NCBI GenBank assembly: GCA_003139095.1
Contig: PLHW01000035.1
Span: 1 to 64,000, forward strand
Source of the DNA: Acidobacteriaceae bacterium
Lineage (GTDB): Bacteria > Acidobacteriota > Terriglobia > Terriglobales > Acidobacteriaceae
Reading direction: 5' to 3'
Length of the DNA: 64,000 bases
The position numbers were made by a program, and so were the translations under genes. The notes beneath the pieces were generated by a model. The model did no database searches and was not told where the DNA came from. It saw only the letters and a list, made by a program, of their open reading frames with translations. This document shows, one piece after another, positions 5,429-45,982 of the stretch (its first letter is position 1; each line of letters begins with the position of its first letter).

Positions 5429-7516
5429 CTACTGCTTGCCCGCGTCTTCGCGCGCCAGCTTGATCTTGGCCGAGTCGAGTTTTTTCTGCACCCGCGCTAC
5501 ATCGCTGGGATCAACTTCCGCGGTGATGGTGCGATTCCACTCGTTCAGGGCGCGGTCCCAGTTGGAGACCGCCATCTTCAGGCGTCCCGTCTTCTGATAC
5601 AAATCGCCCAGATGATCGTGCACGGTGGGATCGGTGTTGATTTTCTGCGAAGCCTTTAACAGGTTCTCTTCCGCCAGATCGAATTTTCCCAGCCGGTAAT
5701 AGGCCCAGCCGAGAGAGTCGAGATACGCGCCGTTGGCCGGATCGAGATCCACCGCGCGCTTGATGTATGCAAGCGCTTCGTCAAGTTGCATATTCTGGTC
5801 GGCGAGCATATAGCCGAGGTAGTTCAGCGCCGAGGCATGCTCCGGATCGCTCGCGATCACTTTCTTGAATTGAACTTCCGCATCCGTGTAGCGCTTTTCG
5901 CGCTCGTACGTGGAGCCTCGCAGAAACCAGACGTAGGCTTTGTCCTCTTCCTTCGTCGAAAGCTGTTCCGCCTTGTCCAGATTCAGTTCCGCCTCGCTGA
6001 ATCGCCGCAGCCGCGTGTTCATTTGCGCCAGCGTCAGAAAAACCTGCCGGTCGCCGGCATCGCCTTTCAGCATGGCGTGAACATCCTGGAGCGCCTTGTC
6101 GGCGTCTCCCATGTCCGCCTGCTGCGCGGCCAAAACCATCTTCAGGTCGCGACTGCTGGGCAGCTTTTGAACCGCTTCTTTTGCGACGTCGGTTGCCTTC
6201 TGCCATTCCTTCGCTTCGCGCCACGTGTCGATAATCTGCTGATATCCGCGCTCGATATTTTCATCGCCGCCGAGCGCGACCATCTGCCGAAAAGTCTCGT
6301 TGGCCGCCTGGTAATTCCCCTGATCGCGATAAATCGTACCCAGCCGCTCCAGAAACACGGCGCGGTTACTCTTCGCGCTTCCGGAATAATCTCCGTCCGG
6401 CTTCTCCGATTTCTTCAGCAGATCGCGCATGATCGGAACCGCTTCGTCGTAGCGGCCCTGCGCCTCGTAAATCGAGGCGATGTTGTACTGCACTTCAATC
6501 GAGTCTGGCACCATGGAAGCGGCCTTCTTCAGATTCTCCAGCGCCAGGTCGAACTTGCCCTGCTTGCGATAAATCTCCGCGATGCGTGTGTAGGTTTGCG
6601 CATCTTCCGGATTTGCGTCGGCGATGACTTTGTACTGTTCCAACGCGGCGTCGCTCTGCCCATCGTTCAGCAGGTTCTCGGCCAGGCCGCGGATGGCGTC
6701 AAGATTGTCGCGATCGAGTTCAATGGCATGGCGATAGGCATCGATCGCGTTCTTGTATTGCTTTTGCTGCTCGTAGGTGTAGCCGAGCGCGGAATAAAGC
6801 TTGGCCGAGCGCCCGTTCTTGGGCACCGAACTCAGCACGTCCGTCGCGCGCGCCGTGTCGCCGAGTTCGTTGTAAAGATACGCGAGCGTGGTGACCGCTT
6901 CTTCCGAGTCCGGCTGGAGTTTGACCGCGGTCTTGAATTCGCCCTCAGCTTTTTGCAGATCGTTGTTCAAGCGATAGAGCCGCCCTAGAAGCAGGTGATC
7001 GTCCATGCTGTCCGGTTCCAGCCGCACAATCTGCTCGTATTGCTCGATCGCCAGTTTCAGCACGCTGTCCGAACCGTTGCCGGCCTGCATGTCGCCGAGT
7101 GAACGCAAATAGATTCTGCCCAGCAGGCGGCGCGCTTCCAAATTGTTGGGATTGCGCTTGATGATGTCCTGCGCTTCGACCACCGCGTCGCGAATTCGCC
7201 CAGTCTTGGCGTAGAGTTCGGCGAGCCCGGAGGTCAGGTATGAGGAGGTCGGATCGGCGTCAATGGCGGCGCGGTATTCCTCGATCGCCTTGTTGGCGAG
7301 ATCGCTGCGCCCATACGTTGCAACCTGCTCCTCGTACATGTGCGCGAGGCAAAAGTGGTAGTAAGCCGCCGCCTTGTCAACCTTGCCCTTTGGGGCAGGC
7401 GAATCCGCACCGGTGGCAGGCGCACTTTGGGCGGGCGCATTTTGGGCGGGCGCATGTTGCGCGAACAACAACGACCCCGTAAGAAGCACAACACTAAGAG
7501 AAAACCAATTTTTCAT
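5429..7516 (-). CDS. Secreted tetratricopeptide repeat protein
   Basis: A 695-residue protein made almost wholly of TPR helices after a signal peptide (MKNWFSLSVVLLTGSLLFA). At least a dozen TPR units can be followed, with typical spacing such as LGRLYRLNNDLQKAEGEFK, LGYTYEQQKQYKNAIDAYR and LGYMLADQNMQLDEALAYIK. A linker of PAQNAPAQSAPA follows the signal and is encoded by three tandem copies of a 15-bp unit near 7425-7462. TPR proteins act as assembly scaffolds; here it is probably periplasmic, possibly lipid-anchored elsewhere, since no lipobox is clear. There is no enzymatic domain. It is alone on its strand between the GAF gene and a repeat-rich gap. Confidence 0.88.
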   Translation of the reverse strand: MKNWFSLSVVLLTGSLLFAQHAPAQNAPAQSAPATGADSPAPKGKVDKAAAYYHFCLAHMYEEQVATYGRSDLANKAIEEYRAAIDADPTSSYLTSGLAELYAKTGRIRDAVVEAQDIIKRNPNNLEARRLLGRIYLRSLGDMQAGNGSDSVLKLAIEQYEQIVRLEPDSMDDHLLLGRLYRLNNDLQKAEGEFKTAVKLQPDSEEAVTTLAYLYNELGDTARATDVLSSVPKNGRSAKLYSALGYTYEQQKQYKNAIDAYRHAIELDRDNLDAIRGLAENLLNDGQSDAALEQYKVIADANPEDAQTYTRIAEIYRKQGKFDLALENLKKAASMVPDSIEVQYNIASIYEAQGRYDEAVPIMRDLLKKSEKPDGDYSGSAKSNRAVFLERLGTIYRDQGNYQAANETFRQMVALGGDENIERGYQQIIDTWREAKEWQKATDVAKEAVQKLPSSRDLKMVLAAQQADMGDADKALQDVHAMLKGDAGDRQVFLTLAQMNTRLRRFSEAELNLDKAEQLSTKEEDKAYVWFLRGSTYEREKRYTDAEVQFKKVIASDPEHASALNYLGYMLADQNMQLDEALAYIKRAVDLDPANGAYLDSLGWAYYRLGKFDLAEENLLKASQKINTDPTVHDHLGDLYQKTGRLKMAVSNWDRALNEWNRTITAEVDPSDVARVQKKLDSAKIKLAREDAGKQ

Positions 7517-7678: not shown

Positions 7679-7700
7679 GCGCAGCGGTTAACCGCTGCGC
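7679..7700. repeat. 22-bp perfect palindrome
   Basis: GCGCAGCGGTT is followed directly by its exact reverse complement with no loop. It is part of the repeat cluster in the gap after the TPR gene. A palindrome this exact could form a cruciform or be a REP-like unit. Confidence 0.7.
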
Positions 7701-7773
7701 TAACTTGCGCCTTTTCAGCATCGGCTTTACGGGCTGCGGAAGAAGTCCGAAATCTTCGTGCAACCGTGGAAGA

Positions 7774-7791
7774 GCGGCCCTATAGGGCCGC
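7774..7791. repeat. 18-bp perfect palindrome
   Basis: GCGGCCCTATAGGGCCGC reads the same on both strands. It lies 73 bases after the 22-bp palindrome in the same non-coding tract. Confidence 0.7.
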
Positions 7792-8299
7792 GTAAATCGT
7801 TTTGATTCAGTTAGGGCCTTAGCCCCAGTGGCCGTTGGCGGCTCGTCAGCCGACTTTTCCCGCAGCCTCTTTAGCAGCGGAGTGAGACATGCGGGCGGAG
7901 GCACTCTTTCCGCAGCCTCTTTAGCCGGTGGCGTATGGCGGTCGCGCAAGAAAGAGTTTTTCCCCAGCCTCCTCCCCTCGTGCCCAGTAAAGCCCGCAAC
8001 GTGTGCCCGCGCTTCAGCGCCTGCGGGCCTCTCCCCGCCTCCGAGAGTTACCCTTAAAGAAACCGCCCGCCATACCGACCATCATCGGGTTCCGAGTGTA
8101 ATCGCCTGGTTTGAACGGTTGACCTAAGTTGCTTCCGGTGTGCCTGTCATGCTGGTGCAATCCCGCTATAGGACGTGGTGTAGAATGAGTCCGAAAGTTC
8201 GCCCAGAGCACGAGGCACAAGCTACAGACGGCTTTATCTCTCCCGCCGCACCGCCGCACTAACCGCCTCTCGCGCCCTGAACGGGAAAGGACGGGCGAC

Positions 8300-9367
8300 A
8301 TGCTCAATTCAGCATTAAACAAGGGAAGGCTCCTGACGGTTCTGTTCCATCTAATCGGTTGGGGTGGACTCCTCGCGTTTGCTGTACCCCCCGCATCGGC
8401 TCAGTTCAAAGCATGGGTTATGGCCAAACTCCCCGAGAGACCGTGGGGTCTGGGAGTCGATTCGAAGGGCAACATCTACACATCGCTTCCTCTAACCGGC
8501 GAGGTTGTGGTGCTAAAGGATGACGGTACCTACGATCACATCGCATGGGTGCCTTCGAAGGAAGAAAGCGGGAAGGATCTCATTGGCCTAGTAGGAGTCG
8601 ATAAGGCGGACAGTATTTACGTCTTTGACAAGGCTCACTCGAAATATGACGAGGAGGATTTGACGAATCCCTTCCATCCGGCGTGCCGGGACGCGACGGC
8701 GACTCGCACCGGGATCTATAAGATCGACCCCAAGACGCGACGGGTGACGGCCCTCGCGACAAAAGCGGACGGTTGGCCTTTCTGCTTTCTTCATGGTGTA
8801 GCAGTCGACTCGAACGGCAATGTGTACACGGCTGACGTCACCTACTCGGCTATTTGGAAGATCTCGCCGGATGGCAAGAAAGTTGATCTCTGGTCAGCCC
8901 ATCCGCTGCTTAACTGGCCAGCGAGTCCTTACTCCGGAGTCTTCTTCGATTCGGAAGTCTACCTTGGCGTCAGCGCTTTAGCGGTCGACAAACAACAGAA
9001 GAACATTTACGCGGTTACCATGGGCGTTCCGATGGTGCTCAAAATCCCGATAAAAGAGGACGGCTCTGCGGGTGAGCCTCAGGCCTTGCAGCCTAGCGGG
9101 TACTCGCTGCTTGACGGTGTCGTACTCGACGCAAAAGGAAACATCTACATTTCCGAGATGCTGCGAAACGAGATTTGGGTTCTTTCGCCTGACGGTTCGC
9201 AACGCATCCTGATAGCCAACAAGATGAACGCTCCGCTGGACAACAACACAGGGCTAGTTTTAAAGGGCGACGTTCTTTGCACCTCCAATTTTGGCTTCGC
9301 GCATTCGAAGTCCGAAGATGCGGACCGGACGGTGGTTTGCATGAACGGTTTCACTGTGCCGAAATAG
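8300..9367 (+). CDS. Secreted SMP-30/NHL-type beta-propeller protein
   Basis: A 355-residue exported protein with signal peptide MLNSALNKGRLLTVLFHLIG... ending PPASAQ. The rest has repeated propeller blades typical of SMP-30/gluconolactonase/NHL proteins: WGLGVDSKGNIYTSLPLTGEV, LVGVDKADSIYVFDK, GVAVDSNGNVYTADVTYSAIW, ALAVDKQQKNIYAVTMG and GVVLDAKGNIYISEMLRNEIW. Each has the D-x-x-G/x-N-I/V-Y signature. An enzyme activity (lactonase) is possible but catalytic metal ligands cannot be assigned confidently. A GGACGGGCGAC stretch just upstream could serve as the ribosome site. It is a single-gene unit between repeat-rich gaps. Confidence 0.78.
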   Translation: MLNSALNKGRLLTVLFHLIGWGGLLAFAVPPASAQFKAWVMAKLPERPWGLGVDSKGNIYTSLPLTGEVVVLKDDGTYDHIAWVPSKEESGKDLIGLVGVDKADSIYVFDKAHSKYDEEDLTNPFHPACRDATATRTGIYKIDPKTRRVTALATKADGWPFCFLHGVAVDSNGNVYTADVTYSAIWKISPDGKKVDLWSAHPLLNWPASPYSGVFFDSEVYLGVSALAVDKQQKNIYAVTMGVPMVLKIPIKEDGSAGEPQALQPSGYSLLDGVVLDAKGNIYISEMLRNEIWVLSPDGSQRILIANKMNAPLDNNTGLVLKGDVLCTSNFGFAHSKSEDADRTVVCMNGFTVPK

Positions 9368-9473
9368 CGGCAACCCGAAAGATCGTGCTGCCTCTCTTGT
9401 CGTTCATTCGTCGTTAAATCCCCATTACACTCAAAACCCTCCCCGGTCCGGCACGGCTGCAACCATTTGCAGG

Positions 9474-9502
9474 TTGACAGGGCAACGACCATAGAACATA
9501 AT
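9474..9502 (+). promoter_or_regulatory. Sigma-70-type promoter
   Basis: TTGACA at 9474-9479 is separated by 17 bp from CATAAT at 9497-9502, a near-consensus pair, 76 bp upstream of the ATG at 9579. It would transcribe the secreted protein gene at 9579. Confidence 0.55.
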
Positions 9503-9578
9503 CTGGCGACGTAGTGGGCGCACCTCCCCGCTATCCGATGCCCGGAGACGTTACGCTTCCACTTGGGGGTTCCTTCCG

Positions 9579-10220
9579 ATGTTATTCAGGATAATCCGCA
9601 CATCCGTCTTGGTTCTGGTTACCTTTCTTGTGCTGGGTCGCGTGACTTGGGCACAGTCGAGTGCGGATGCAGCCGTTAGCCAGACAACCGAAACGCTCAC
9701 CATCACCATCAATGGCACGCTTGGACCGGTCCTGTCGGGCAGCGATCCCATCGGCGCCGATGGGCAAAGCGGAACCGTCACCATCATGGCCAGCGAGTCG
9801 CTGTCGCCCACGAAACACACCAAGACTTCCGCCACCTACACTCTTCCCGCCGGCGCAATCACCGCTGTCGTGGGAGGCGAGACCTTCAGCAACAACTCTC
9901 CGGCCAAGATGACGATCAAGCTGGCGAAGAAGGCAGACACGCTGACTTTGACTTTTGCCTCTTCCATCGATGGTTTCAGTTTTACCATCACGGATACGAC
10001 CACTCTGGAGGCCGGCAGTTGGACGACTGCCGTGCTCGAACACCCCGAGGTCTTCGCTCCCTCTCCGCAGACGCTGACGGCGGCCAAGTCTGCCACCGGA
10101 AAGGGTAGTAAGTTCGAATACACGGTCGAAGGAGAGGCAACGGTTCTCGGCGTGGCTGGAACCGCTTCTAACAGTGCCCAGGTGGACCCGGTTCTTCCCG
10201 ACGACGATTTGGATCAATAA
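9579..10220 (+). CDS. Secreted protein of unknown function
   Basis: A 213-residue protein with a clear signal peptide (MLFRIIRTSVLVLVTFLVLGRVTWAQ). The mature part is rich in Thr and Ser and made of short beta-strand-like stretches (TLTITINGTLGPVLSG, TVTIMASESLS, MTIKLAKKADTLTLTFAS), ending in an acidic tail DPVLPDDDLDQ. This looks like an all-beta extracellular domain, but I do not recognise a family. Fewer than 10% of residues are aromatic and there is no cysteine in the mature chain. It has a good promoter at 9474-9502 and no neighbour close enough to form an operon. Confidence 0.65.
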   Translation: MLFRIIRTSVLVLVTFLVLGRVTWAQSSADAAVSQTTETLTITINGTLGPVLSGSDPIGADGQSGTVTIMASESLSPTKHTKTSATYTLPAGAITAVVGGETFSNNSPAKMTIKLAKKADTLTLTFASSIDGFSFTITDTTTLEAGSWTTAVLEHPEVFAPSPQTLTAAKSATGKGSKFEYTVEGEATVLGVAGTASNSAQVDPVLPDDDLDQ

Positions 10221-10731
10221 GGCGGTTGTCCTGTTGATTCTCAGCCGACCCAGTGAGAGCTGACGCTCATTAGCTTTGGACCTTGCTGATCTCTGGAAGC
10301 ACTTGCCGGAAGCTCGGCGAAGGTGGATTCCCTTCGGGAATACTCCCGGACGCCGCGCGGGGCCTTTGGCTGTGGGACGGTGTTCAAGCTAACGCCGATT
10401 TTTCGACCGCTGTGATCTAGTGTCCCTTTTTGCCGCTCTCTATTTCCCTCATTGGCTCTTTGCCCGCCCCTCCACAAATTCCTTGACTTAGCCCCCGCCC
10501 TCGCCATCAACTAAGAACAGCACACACCTTGCGTCGGCCCCTGGGCACCCCCGGTGCCTAAAGCCGAAGGCGCTCTTTGACTCGAAGATGTATAGGGCGG
10601 ACACTCCGGTCCGCCCCCGAAGCCTCCCAGGAGGCTTCCTGGCTAAGTACGATCTTTGCTTCGAAAAATGCCTCCCAGGAGGCGAGGGTTGGAGACAGGT
10701 CTTTGACATTTTCATGGGCGTGAGCCTTGCA
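10221..10731. other. Non-coding tract with short hairpins
   Basis: No gene is supported. Three stems are visible: GGGCGGAC/GTCCGCCC at 10595-10616, GAAGCCTCC/GGAGGCTTC at 10619-10638, and GCCTCCCAGGAGGC at 10670-10683, the last two sharing the core CCTCCCAGGAGG. They lead into the A+T-rich element at 10732. Confidence 0.55.
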
Positions 10732-10895
10732 CCATGCGGGTTTGACAACTCGTGAGTCGCCTCTCGATTTCTTGCAGTTGACGGTAAGTCTTTGGTTTAT
10801 AAAGACTTTAGCTATAAGTCCTTATTCCTCAAAGACCTGGCGCTCCGCACCCTCTAAGTCTTTGACTTCATTAGACCAGGGGAGGGGGGCTACCC
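10732..10895 (-). repeat. Degenerate copy of the AAAG[TA][AC]TT element
   Basis: Read on the minus strand it opens GGGTAGCCCCCCTCCCC, carries CAAAGACTT and AATAAGGACTTATAGCTAAAG, then CAACTGCAAGAAA, and ends TCAAACCCGCATGG. These land in the same order as GGGGGGTACCCCCC, AATAAAGACTTAGACGTAAAG, TTAACTGCGATAAA and CAAAACCCGCATT in the element at 11047-11382. It is shorter and much more diverged. It lies directly 3' of that element on the same strand. Confidence 0.55.
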
Positions 10896-10926
10896 AGTCA
10901 CCCGACCATTCGCAACGCGTTGGTTT

Positions 10927-10962
10927 CCCCTGTGATCCTCTGTGCCCCCCGTGGTTAAAGCC
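10927..10962 (-). repeat. Short purine-rich interspersed repeat
   Basis: On the minus strand this reads TTAACCACGGGGGGCAC followed by AGAGGATCACAGGGGAAACC. It resembles the CCACGG-GGCACAGAGG type of interspersed repeat I know from many environmental genomes; that resemblance is from memory and unverified. It sits between the two AAAG-type elements. Confidence 0.4.
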
Positions 10963-11046
10963 TTTGACTTCCTCGTCGGACGCCAAATCCGACGCCCGCA
11001 GCCGAGGCGAATTCATAAAGAGCACTGTTTTCAACGCACTACACTG

Positions 11047-11382
11047 AATGCGGGTTTTGGCAGAGCTTAAGTCTTTCATCTTGAATACTTTACTTGTAAG
11101 CATCTTCGAATGAATACTTTGCGAGGAACGGGCCGAAAAGACCCATTTTATCGCAGTTAACTCCCATGCGCTCAAGACTTTACGTCTAAGTCTTTATTCC
11201 GCAAGACTTTGGCAGGCAACAGTCAAAAAATTGCCTAAAATCGGACCTAACTTAAACTCAATAAAAGAGTTACAATAACTAAGTTCAAGTCTATATTTTT
11301 GAATACTTTGAAAGCCAACTTACTCTAACCGACTGATTTCATTAGATAGTGCTTGTGAGGGGAGGGAGGGGGGGTACCCCCC
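11047..11382 (-). repeat. AAAG[TA][AC]TT element, full copy 1
   Basis: A 336-base A+T-rich unit in G+C-rich surroundings. On the minus strand it begins with the perfect palindrome GGGGGGTACCCCCC (11369-11382) and ends CTGCCAAAACCCGCATT. It matches 45221-45558 almost from end to end, with exact shared runs of roughly 30-47 bases separated by variable patches. Repeated words AAAGTATTC, AAAGTCTTG and AAAGACTT occur at least seven times, one pair forming the hairpin AAGACTT/AAGTCTT. No open frame is conserved between the two copies. It begins 34 bp after the purH stop codon, on the same strand as purH. Confidence 0.85.
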
Positions 11383-11415
11383 ACAAGAAAGAGTCGTCTT
11401 TTGTGCCCAAGGCCC

Positions 11416-12966
11416 TTAGTGGCGGAAGTGGCGGACTCCGGTAAAGATCATTGCCAAGCCGAGCCGATCGGCGGCTTCGATCACTTCCTGGTCGCGCACC
11501 GAGCCACCCGGCTGAATAATCGCTGTCGCTCCGGCTTTGGCTATTTCTTCGACGCCATCGGGAAACGGGAAAAACGCATCCGACGCGGCGACGGTTCCCT
11601 TCAACGGGAGTTGCGCCTTCATGGCGCCGATCTTGCAGGAGTCGACGCGGCTCATCTGCCCCGCGCCCACGCCGACGGTTTGCCCGTCGCGCGCGTACAA
11701 AATCGCATTCGACTTGACGTGCTTGCAAATTTTCCAGGCAAAGAGCAACGCGCGATGTTCCTCTGCCGTCGGCGCACGCTTCGTCATCACCTTCAAATCC
11801 GATTCCTTCAACTGAAGCAGGTCCGCATCCTGAACGAGCAAGCCGCCGGAAATATTCTTCAGCACCCAGTCCTGCCGCCCCGGAGGAACCTCCACCAGGC
11901 GCAGATTCTTCTTCGAGGCGAAAACCTGTTTTGCAGCGGCGTCAAACGAAGGTGCAGCGATCACCTCCAGAAAAAGCTTGGCCATCTCGCTGGCGGCGGC
12001 CGCGTCAATGGGCCGGTTCACGCCAATCACCCCCCCGAATGCCGATACCGGATCGCACTCCAGCGCCCGCACATAGGCCTCGGCCAGCGTTTTTCCGGTC
12101 GCCGCGCCACAGGGATTTGTATGCTTGATGATGCCGCAAAACGGCCCTTCGAACTCGTGCGCCAGATCCCACGCGGCTTGCAAATCGACAATGTTGTTAT
12201 AAGAAAGCTCTTTTCCCTGCACTTGTTTTGCGTGCGCAACACCGGCAGCCGAATCGTCGGCATACATCGCCGCTTTCTGGTGCGGATTTTCGCCGTAGCG
12301 CAAATCCATCTGCTTGTGGAAACTCAGACGCAGCGTAGCTGGGAATCCGGCGGGCGGCGATAACTCGAACTTTTCGCCGACGCGCTCCAGCGTCGAGGCG
12401 ATCGCCGAATCGTAGGCCGCCGTCGTGGCAAACGCTTTTTGCGCCAGCCGCCACTTTGTTTCTTTAGAGAGTTCACCGCCCGCGCGCGCCATTTCATCGG
12501 CGATCGCCGCGTAATCGCCCGGAGACGTCACCACTGCGACATCCTGGAAATTCTTCGCCGCCGAGCGAATCATCGACGGGCCGCCAATGTCGATGTTCTC
12601 GATCAGTTCTTCGAAGTGCACACCCGGCTTGGCTGCGGTCTTTTCGAAGGCATAAAGGTTCACCACAACCATGTCGATGGCGGGTATGCCGTGCTCGGCC
12701 ACGGCCGCCCGATGGCCGGCGTCATCGCGCCGATGCAATATGCCGCCGTGCACCTTCGGATGCAGCGTTTTCACTCGTCCATCCAGCATCTCGGGAAAGC
12801 CGGTCAGATCAGAAACGTCTTGGACGGCAATACCGGAATCGCGCAAAAGCTTCGCCGTGCCGCCGGTGGAGACGAGCTCAACACCCAACCCGCTCAGCTG
12901 GCGGGCGAAATCCACCAGCCCCGATTTGTCAGTAACGCTAAGAATGGCGCGTTGAACCCTGGACAT
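11416..12966 (-). CDS. purH: Bifunctional AICAR transformylase/IMP cyclohydrolase
   Basis: Catalyses the last two steps of de novo IMP synthesis: formyl transfer to AICAR and ring closure. The 516-residue length is standard. The N-terminal MGS-like cyclohydrolase domain (about 1-145) shows [32 protein letters not shown] and [12 protein letters not shown]. The C-terminal transformylase domain carries [15 protein letters not shown], the folate/AICAR loop [28 protein letters not shown] and the C-terminal [17 protein letters not shown]. Start ATG 12966 gives [11 protein letters not shown] as in homologues. No purine-pathway neighbours are present. It is followed on the same strand by the A+T-rich element at 11047-11382. 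Confidence 0.97.
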
Positions 12967-45111: not shown

Positions 45112-45220
45112 CGCCGAGGGGCAGGTGGGGATGTTCTGCTTGCGGAGATTCCTGCCCAATCCTCCTTTTCTCCCTTTCGCGTCTTCGTTGTCATGGTCGT
45201 CTTTGGAGCGCATTTTTGGT

Positions 45221-45558
45221 GGGGGGTACCCCCCCTACCCACCCCATCCTGCGCTGTCTATTGAAATCAGCGACTTAGAATAAGTTGGCTGGCAAAGTAT
45301 TCAAAAATATAGACTTGAACTTAGTTCTTGCAACTCTTTTTACGAGTTAGAGTTAGGTTCGATTTTCTGATATTTTGCGATTTCTTGCCTGCCAAAGTCT
45401 TGATAAATAGAGACTTAGAGGTAAAGTCTTGAGCGCATGGGAGTTAACTGCGAAAAAATAGGGTTTTTCGGCTCGTTCCTCGCAAAGTATTCATTCGAAA
45501 CTGCTTACAGGTAAAGTATTCAAGATGAAAGACTTAAGCTCTGCCAAAACCCGCATTT
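45221..45558 (+). repeat. AAAG[TA][AC]TT element, full copy 2
   Basis: A 338-base A+T-rich unit in inverted orientation to 11047-11382. It begins with GGGGGGTACCCCCC and ends CTGCCAAAACCCGCATT. Exact shared runs with copy 1 include parts starting CAAAGTATTCAAAAATATAG, GTAAAGTCTTGAGCGCATGG and GTAAAGTATTCAAGATGAAA. The hairpin AGACTT/AAGTCT is kept although its loop bases changed. No reading frame is conserved between copies, which argues for RNA or DNA function. It begins 110 bp after the efflux channel stop codon, same strand. Confidence 0.85.
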
Positions 45559-45982
45559 AGAAGGAGACAGGCACGGGCGACCAGCTTTCTTGTTGTCAAA
45601 GAAGAACGGCCTTCTGCAACGAAAGGCGACGGCCCTGGGGCGCGTCTGAATGGAGCCTTCTACTTACATTATAAGTTGGCGTGTCAAGGAAGTACGTTAC
45701 GGAGCGAATTGGGCTAGGCAATCATTCCAAGGGTGGGTTCGTGGTTACAACGTCTCGCGGAGTTTCTTGGTTCATACTCGCACTCGTGAGCGTAATCGCC
45801 TCCCTAGAAAAGAGCCGTAACTCACTGCAACCAGGTGGTTGGCGGGGAACCTCTTTTCATCCTTCGTTGTGACCGGATTCCGGTCATGCTGACCTGATAA
45901 CATCAGTTGACGAGATTTGGCAGCCAAGACGGGGTTGCGGCAGGTGGATATCGTGAGGCCGTCCCTGCCAGGAACACCTTAT
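45559..45982. other. Gap with no recognised feature
   Basis: Between the repeat element and the kelch-type gene I see no gene, hairpin with T-run or operator. A 63-codon open frame at 45681-45872 lacks any supporting feature. CGGATTCCGG (45865-45880) is a small palindrome. Confidence 0.4.

Follow-up and report, generated by a model that had tools for sequence, protein, structure and literature searches.

A dispersed family of intergenic non-coding elements in Acidobacteriaceae, built from strictly spaced 29-bp units and accompanied in two genera by an rrn-type boxA

Introduction

REP/BIME, ERIC, RUP and MITE-type repeats are short, dispersed, intergenic sequences without coding capacity, as is the element described here. 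Unlike these repeats, it has no palindromic core or terminal inverted repeats and consists of tandem, strictly spaced units with a fixed polarity and a C-rich end. Judged by description, it also resembles the pneumococcal BOX element (boxA-boxB-boxC; PMC3049150), which is dispersed, intergenic, modular and non-coding, varies in the number of its internal modules and tends to lie between convergent genes; BOX, however, shows target duplications, is bounded by terminal inverted repeats and is predicted to form stable RNA folds; we found none of these in our element. The repeat here is instead a 29-bp unit, and the boxA that accompanies it is of the rrn type, to which the "boxA" of BOX is unrelated.

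To our knowledge, rrn-type boxA has few known uses outside rRNA, namely phage nut sites and CRISPR arrays. Where boxA stands upstream of a long untranslated RNA, RNA polymerase resists Rho through NusB/NusE (PMC4807359), and, as PMC7862264 relates in citing Stringer et al., a boxA precedes some CRISPR arrays. The element can be compared with both settings. Its GNTCTTTGACAA is identical to the boxA (NusB/NusE site; PMC4807359) in rRNA operon leaders of the same family, whereas no rRNA follows it and it occurs at many loci per genome. Like a boxA-led CRISPR array (GTTCTTTAAAA in Legionella Lens, in the account of Stringer et al. given by PMC7862264), it has an antitermination signal ahead of a long repeat array that is not translated. 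Unlike CRISPR, it has neither spacers nor a CRISPR repeat: in place of identical repeats with unique spacers of similar length, we found arrays of only 2-6 units at 29 bp from unit to unit, with short inter-unit sequence that is conserved at some positions.

We analyzed a window of 64,000 nt from an Acidobacteriaceae bacterium, in which two similar non-coding stretches had been noticed. Both are members of a previously undescribed family of dispersed intergenic non-coding elements. The family is a variant of modular intergenic repeats, abundant and undescribed in the searchable literature; a search of open-access publications turned up no account of repeats of this kind in Acidobacteria. Our preferred reading, to which we assign a probability of roughly 0.5, is a modular, non-autonomous, non-coding insertion element of one Acidobacteriaceae-type family whose opposite strand would form a boxA-protected non-coding transcription unit.

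Results

The two stretches, copy A and copy B (338 and 336 bp, in opposite orientation; Table 1), align over their full length at 86% identity (E 1.5e-108), far from a chance similarity. Both open with GGGGGGTACCCCCC and close with CTGCCAAAACCCGCATT, and their pairwise similarity ends at the very positions that the original prediction had given. These limits are correct for the pair. The right end, however, is not the true end of the element: CTGCCAAAACCCGCATT is the mark of a subfamily of 5 copies, since homology to a copy on contig C75 runs on to ~45697. In most other copies of the genome, the array side is divergent. The predicted lack of a conserved reading frame was borne out, with no ORF of at least 100 aa in copy A and no ORF touching copy B that is common to both.

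A nucleotide query of the window genome (5.5 Mb, 75 contigs) revealed a multicopy element, well beyond two copies. There were 18 matches in both orientations, 15 of them alignable and 13 strong (E below 1e-37, 75-100% identity), and for the strong copies, with the query left aside, E values of 1e-38 to 1e-117 exclude chance. All 15 aligned copies lie between predicted genes. A different intergenic repeat of ~90-110 bp was seen on contig C75 (184832-184944; L079:5833-5945), with scattered matches in many genus-mates (query 2833-2946).

When one genome each of ~85,000 species was searched, the strict two-unit pattern occurred in 23 stretches. The records of 22 are titled Acidobacteria, Acidobacteriaceae, Granulicella, Terracidiphilus or Edaphobacter lichenicola (now Tunturiibacter, Acidobacteriaceae), and the other is a MAG titled "bacterium". 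R1, a sequence-only model, found matches in 33 of 299 genomes of the class, from 8 genera, and in 13 of 297 genomes of the phylum; several genomes contained at least 14-18 each. Every match fell within the Acidobacteriaceae-type family of the window genome and none in the other families sampled from the class and the phylum. No viral contig carried the strict pattern, on which ground a viral origin was rejected.

In the orientation of copy A, the element comprises a C-rich tract with GGTACC, CTGTCTAATGGAATCAnnnACTTAGAGTAAGTTGG, GCAAAGTATTCAAAAATATAGACTTGAACTTA and two tandem pairs of the 29-bp unit. The C-rich GGTACCCCCC tract adjoins the gene edge, with the array behind it; a C-run left of the array was present in 42 of 80 relatives, where the opposite strand gave 12 and shuffled sequence 14.8. 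The unit, GYAAARTMTTSA-N8-GRSTTA, is tandem and strictly spaced, and 80 loci fetched with the model gave the consensus GYAAARTMTTSAWWNYAAANGRSTTAnnnG. The distance from the first block to TTA (D-N11-TTA) was exactly 11 nt in 119/157 cases, and unit-to-unit distances cluster at 29 bp in the window genome. Units occur in two flavors, AAAGTATTCA and AAAGTCTTGA, with coupled positions, and contain imperfect inverted half-sites (AAGTM...GACTT), a form that brought integron attC and Xer/dif-like sites into view as possible parallels. Their core is genome-specific, reading AAAAT in 27 of 28 units of genome G267 and AAAGT in all 33 of G270. In the composite intergenic region that holds copy B, a 14-bp palindrome, GCCTCCCAGGAGGC, occurs twice, 48 bp apart (10622-10635 and 10670-10683).

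Table 1. Positions in the window of the two element copies and of their component features
Feature	Position	Strand	Basis
Core of copy A, from C-rich end to right end of the subfamily	45221..45558	+	86% identity to 11047-11382, 75-88% to further copies in the genome
C-rich tract with palindrome GGGGGGTACCCCCC, G-rich on - strand	45221..45246	+	In nearly all strong copies of the window genome
GCAAAGTATTCAAAAATATAGACTTGAACTTA, most conserved stretch	45292..45323	+	0-3 mismatches across 15 copies
Tandem pair of 29-bp units, AAAGTCTTGA flavor	45393..45446	+	Pattern match and model R1, 60.6 bits
Tandem pair of 29-bp units, AAAGTATTCA flavor	45483..45536	+	Model R1, 53.9 bits
boxA-like site CTTCTTTGACAA, 1 mismatch to GNTCTTTGACAA	45593..45604	-	Matches rrn leader boxA
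TATAAT, putative -10-like word	45668..45673	-	Conserved in subfamily
CTTGACA, right-side signal; resembles a -35 word at the wrong distance from TATAAT	45682..45688	-	Sequence match
Copy B core	11047..11382	-	C-rich end 34 bp beyond purH stop codon
Copy B, tandem unit pair	11068..11121	-	Model R1, 52.3 bits
Copy B, second tandem unit pair	11158..11211	-	Model R1, 49.4 bits
Shorter variant array in head-to-tail arrangement with copy B, C-rich tract of its own (GTAGCCCCCC...GGTCTAATGAAGTCAAAGACTTA)	10782..10895	-	Model R1, 22.7 bits; module also in L076 and L077
boxA-like site GGTCTTTGACAT, 1 mismatch	10698..10709	+	Sequence match
CCTTGACTTA, right-side signal of the composite	10481..10490	+	Word CTTGACTTA exact in 10/18 other scored elements

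The exact and variable blocks of the two copies had been interpreted as the footprint of selection on a structure. We find that the blocks are the tandem 29-bp units with their strict internal spacing, and essentially no covariation accompanies them. RNAalifold returned 0 pairs for 145 aligned units; for 13 full copies, each strand gave only ~-6 kcal/mol and 1-2 covarying pairs. Within the unit, putative hairpin partners did not covary (variable base against partner, p = 0.98). Single-sequence folding gave z = -2.6 against shuffles for the plus strand of copy A and -1.55 for the minus strand. Rfam yielded no match in either gathering or E-value mode, in agreement with the original reading, which recognized no named RNA.

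For boxA, we scored 16 elements of the window genome chosen without reference to it. On the strand opposite to the element and on the array side away from the C-tract, GNTCTTTGACAA was found with at most 1 mismatch in 13 of the 16, sites that are not 13 independent observations because the copies are related. The other strand and the other side of the same 16 elements gave none, and other intergenic DNA of the same loci gave 1 match in 25.6 kb. Genus-mates showed the same arrangement in 11/18 elements (0 on the other strand), as did G267, from another genus, in 8/14 (again 0). At this threshold, boxA was absent from the ~60 elements found outside g1 and the genus of G267, with none in genus g13, and it is therefore not a universal part of the element. 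In the window genome, it matches the organism's own rrn leader boxA (GNTCTTTGACAA): the 16S leaders of the window genome (L107) and of a genus-mate both read GGTCTTTGACAA, that of Edaphobacter reads GATCTTTGACAA, and all three carry G[AG]TCTTTGACAA.

Promoter-like words lie on the far side of the array. From CTTGACTTA to boxA, the distance is exactly 64 nt in 4 copies and 61-67 in three more, and TATAAT or TAAAAT occurs on the boxA strand in other subfamilies. We rejected a canonical sigma-70 promoter, as the -35-like CTTGACTTA and the -10-like words are present at non-canonical spacing. The polarity of the element is fixed and runs from the gene edge through the C-rich tract, the 29-bp unit array and the hairpin/boxA zone to the -10/-35-like signals.

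Genus g13 carries the signal CTTGACAGG on the plus strand, which may be unrelated. In this genus (L150-L168), several elements have TTGCAA exactly 20 nt upstream of TAAAAT on the minus strand, right of the array, and CTTGACA occurs on the other strand at 76, 98 or 109 bp, approximately whole helical turns apart. A compact element of the window genome (L108, contig C75, 131033) combines boxA, a short array and a G-run within ~330 nt and reads toward the start of a gene that, by eye, resembles an SDR/FabG frame.

In most copies, the C-rich end lies ~11-200 bp from a gene edge, which may be the 3′ or the 5′ edge, and the array side faces the longer gap. The C-tract follows directly on stop codons in many copies; elements with the C-tract beside a gene start are about equally common, and there is no preference for gene direction. 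Copy A and L060 both follow an outer-membrane efflux gene, and we considered positional conservation for this pair; it was rejected, as the two genes share only 41% identity and are followed on the right by different neighbors.

Comparison of genus-mates revealed empty sites at mpl and purH, from which we conclude that the elements have been inserted. In genus g13, mpl is separated from the next gene by 4-82 bp in 14 genomes and by 309-1344 bp in six with the element (G270, G368, G278 and G353, and, with extra DNA, G354 and G199). In most of the six, a C-rich tract or a unit opens the element no more than ~30 bp from the mpl stop. Sequence divergence between the copies of G270 and G368, one with AAAGTCTTGA and the other with AAAATATTGA, has left their units and spacing unchanged; this is an old insertion common to diverged species. 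The empty mpl sites are too diverged for exact joints or a target duplication to be read.

At purH, genus-mates with resolvable synteny lack the element, and in most of them a TPR gene adjoins purH. The corresponding interval of the window genome contains ~3.7 kb of inserted DNA with two genes and two element units. In window coordinates, the stretch absent from genus-mates is 7700-11400, between the TPR gene (5429-7516) and purH (11416-12966), and its genes lie at 8300-9367 and 9609-10220 alongside the elements. Elements occupy the edge of the insertion at purH, and the contig C75 copy lies at the edge of genus-conserved sequence.

The original reading, which saw no transposase and recognized no named mobile element, holds in part: there is no associated transposase, and the empty sites show insertion all the same. 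We found no consistent transposase beside the copies and no inverted repeats of at least 14 nt in 45150-45720 that could serve as terminal inverted repeats. The sole candidate transposase seen beside a copy is at L016 (contig C75, 116669), where a short array lies directly upstream of a frame resembling, by eye, an IS1595-type (zinc-ribbon) transposase.

Discussion

Family identity, polarity, strict unit spacing, intergenic insertion and a strand- and side-specific boxA are the observations on which we build. The boxA association and the strict, genome-specific unit make the element more than an unremarkable repeat. The transcription, promoter, end point and function that we propose for it are read from these sequence features.

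Because boxA is fixed in strand and in position before the array, the simplest reading is that the array would be transcribed from its far side toward the gene. In the window genus and one other, RNA polymerase would start on the far side of the array and read boxA. With NusB/NusE recruited in this way, it would resist Rho in the manner known from rRNA leaders and boxA-led CRISPR arrays. It would then cross the array as untranslated RNA and stop at or after the G-rich tract beside the gene. The G6AG7-type tract on the strand proposed as transcribed resembles G-run transcription stops such as mitochondrial CSBII and ColE1 RNA II; unlike those, the element shows no sign of replication priming or R-loops. 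The strict spacing, the lack of folding and a core that varies from genome to genome suggest that the 29-bp units may be sites for a sequence-specific trans-acting factor, on DNA or on unfolded RNA. A genome-specific core is the expectation for a co-evolving trans-acting factor, and recent copying from one master element could also give it. The outcome would be insulation or antisense control of the adjoining gene.

The main rival is a purely parasitic repeat of the BOX/MITE type, in which the units are transposase or recombinase binding sites boxA was carried along by chance in the ancestral copy and there is no host function. We regard this as possible, if doubtful, and it could be compatible with a boxA transcription unit. 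Insertion polymorphism and empty sites fit it, as does a mild excess of elements between convergent genes (31/107 compared to 59/297 gene pairs, p = 0.058) without preference for gene direction, reminiscent of pneumococcal BOX (PMC3049150). It accords poorly with the missing terminal inverted repeats and consistent transposase, with spacing and polarity that are kept across genera and in the old G270/G368 insertion, and with the constancy of boxA strand and side in two genera.

The arrays might instead act at the DNA level only, bound near gene edges by a nucleoid-associated or regulatory protein and giving no transcript. The strict D-E spacing with imperfect inverted half-sites, the lack of RNA covariation and the genome-specific core would all suit such sites. 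We nevertheless consider this improbable, as it leaves unexplained both the strand- and side-specific boxA and the -10-like TAAAAT/TATAAT on the same strand.

We think it very improbable that the element is a bidirectional termination module, with a plus-strand C-rich, G-poor, rut-like sequence for Rho and a downstream hairpin. The C-rich tract does stand right after stop codons in many copies, and some g13 copies have intrinsic-terminator-like hairpins right of the array (6 on the plus strand compared to 0.6 in shuffles). However, such hairpins occur in only 6-7/80 relatives, on which ground we rejected intrinsic termination as a general function; moreover, the C-tract lies about equally often beside gene starts, and termination needs neither 29-bp arrays nor boxA. 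A structured RNA family, as originally suggested, is barely credible: in its favor, predicted folding of the copy A plus strand is somewhat more stable than that of shuffled sequence, but the minus-strand score, the near absence of covariation across 13 whole copies and 145 units and the lack of an Rfam match largely rule it out for the array.

Returning to the boxA-protected transcription unit, we tentatively suggest that the family may consist of dispersed non-coding transcription units of a new class. Each member would comprise its own promoter-like region, an rrn-type boxA, a factor-binding array of 29-nt units and a G-rich stop beside a gene, so that many boxA-protected repeat RNAs, acting as sponge, antisense or insulator, might arise from otherwise silent intergenic DNA. 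A boxA at constant strand and position, together with a genome-specific spaced repeat, suggests that this abundant, poorly studied soil phylum possesses a hitherto unknown RNA- or DNA-binding system.
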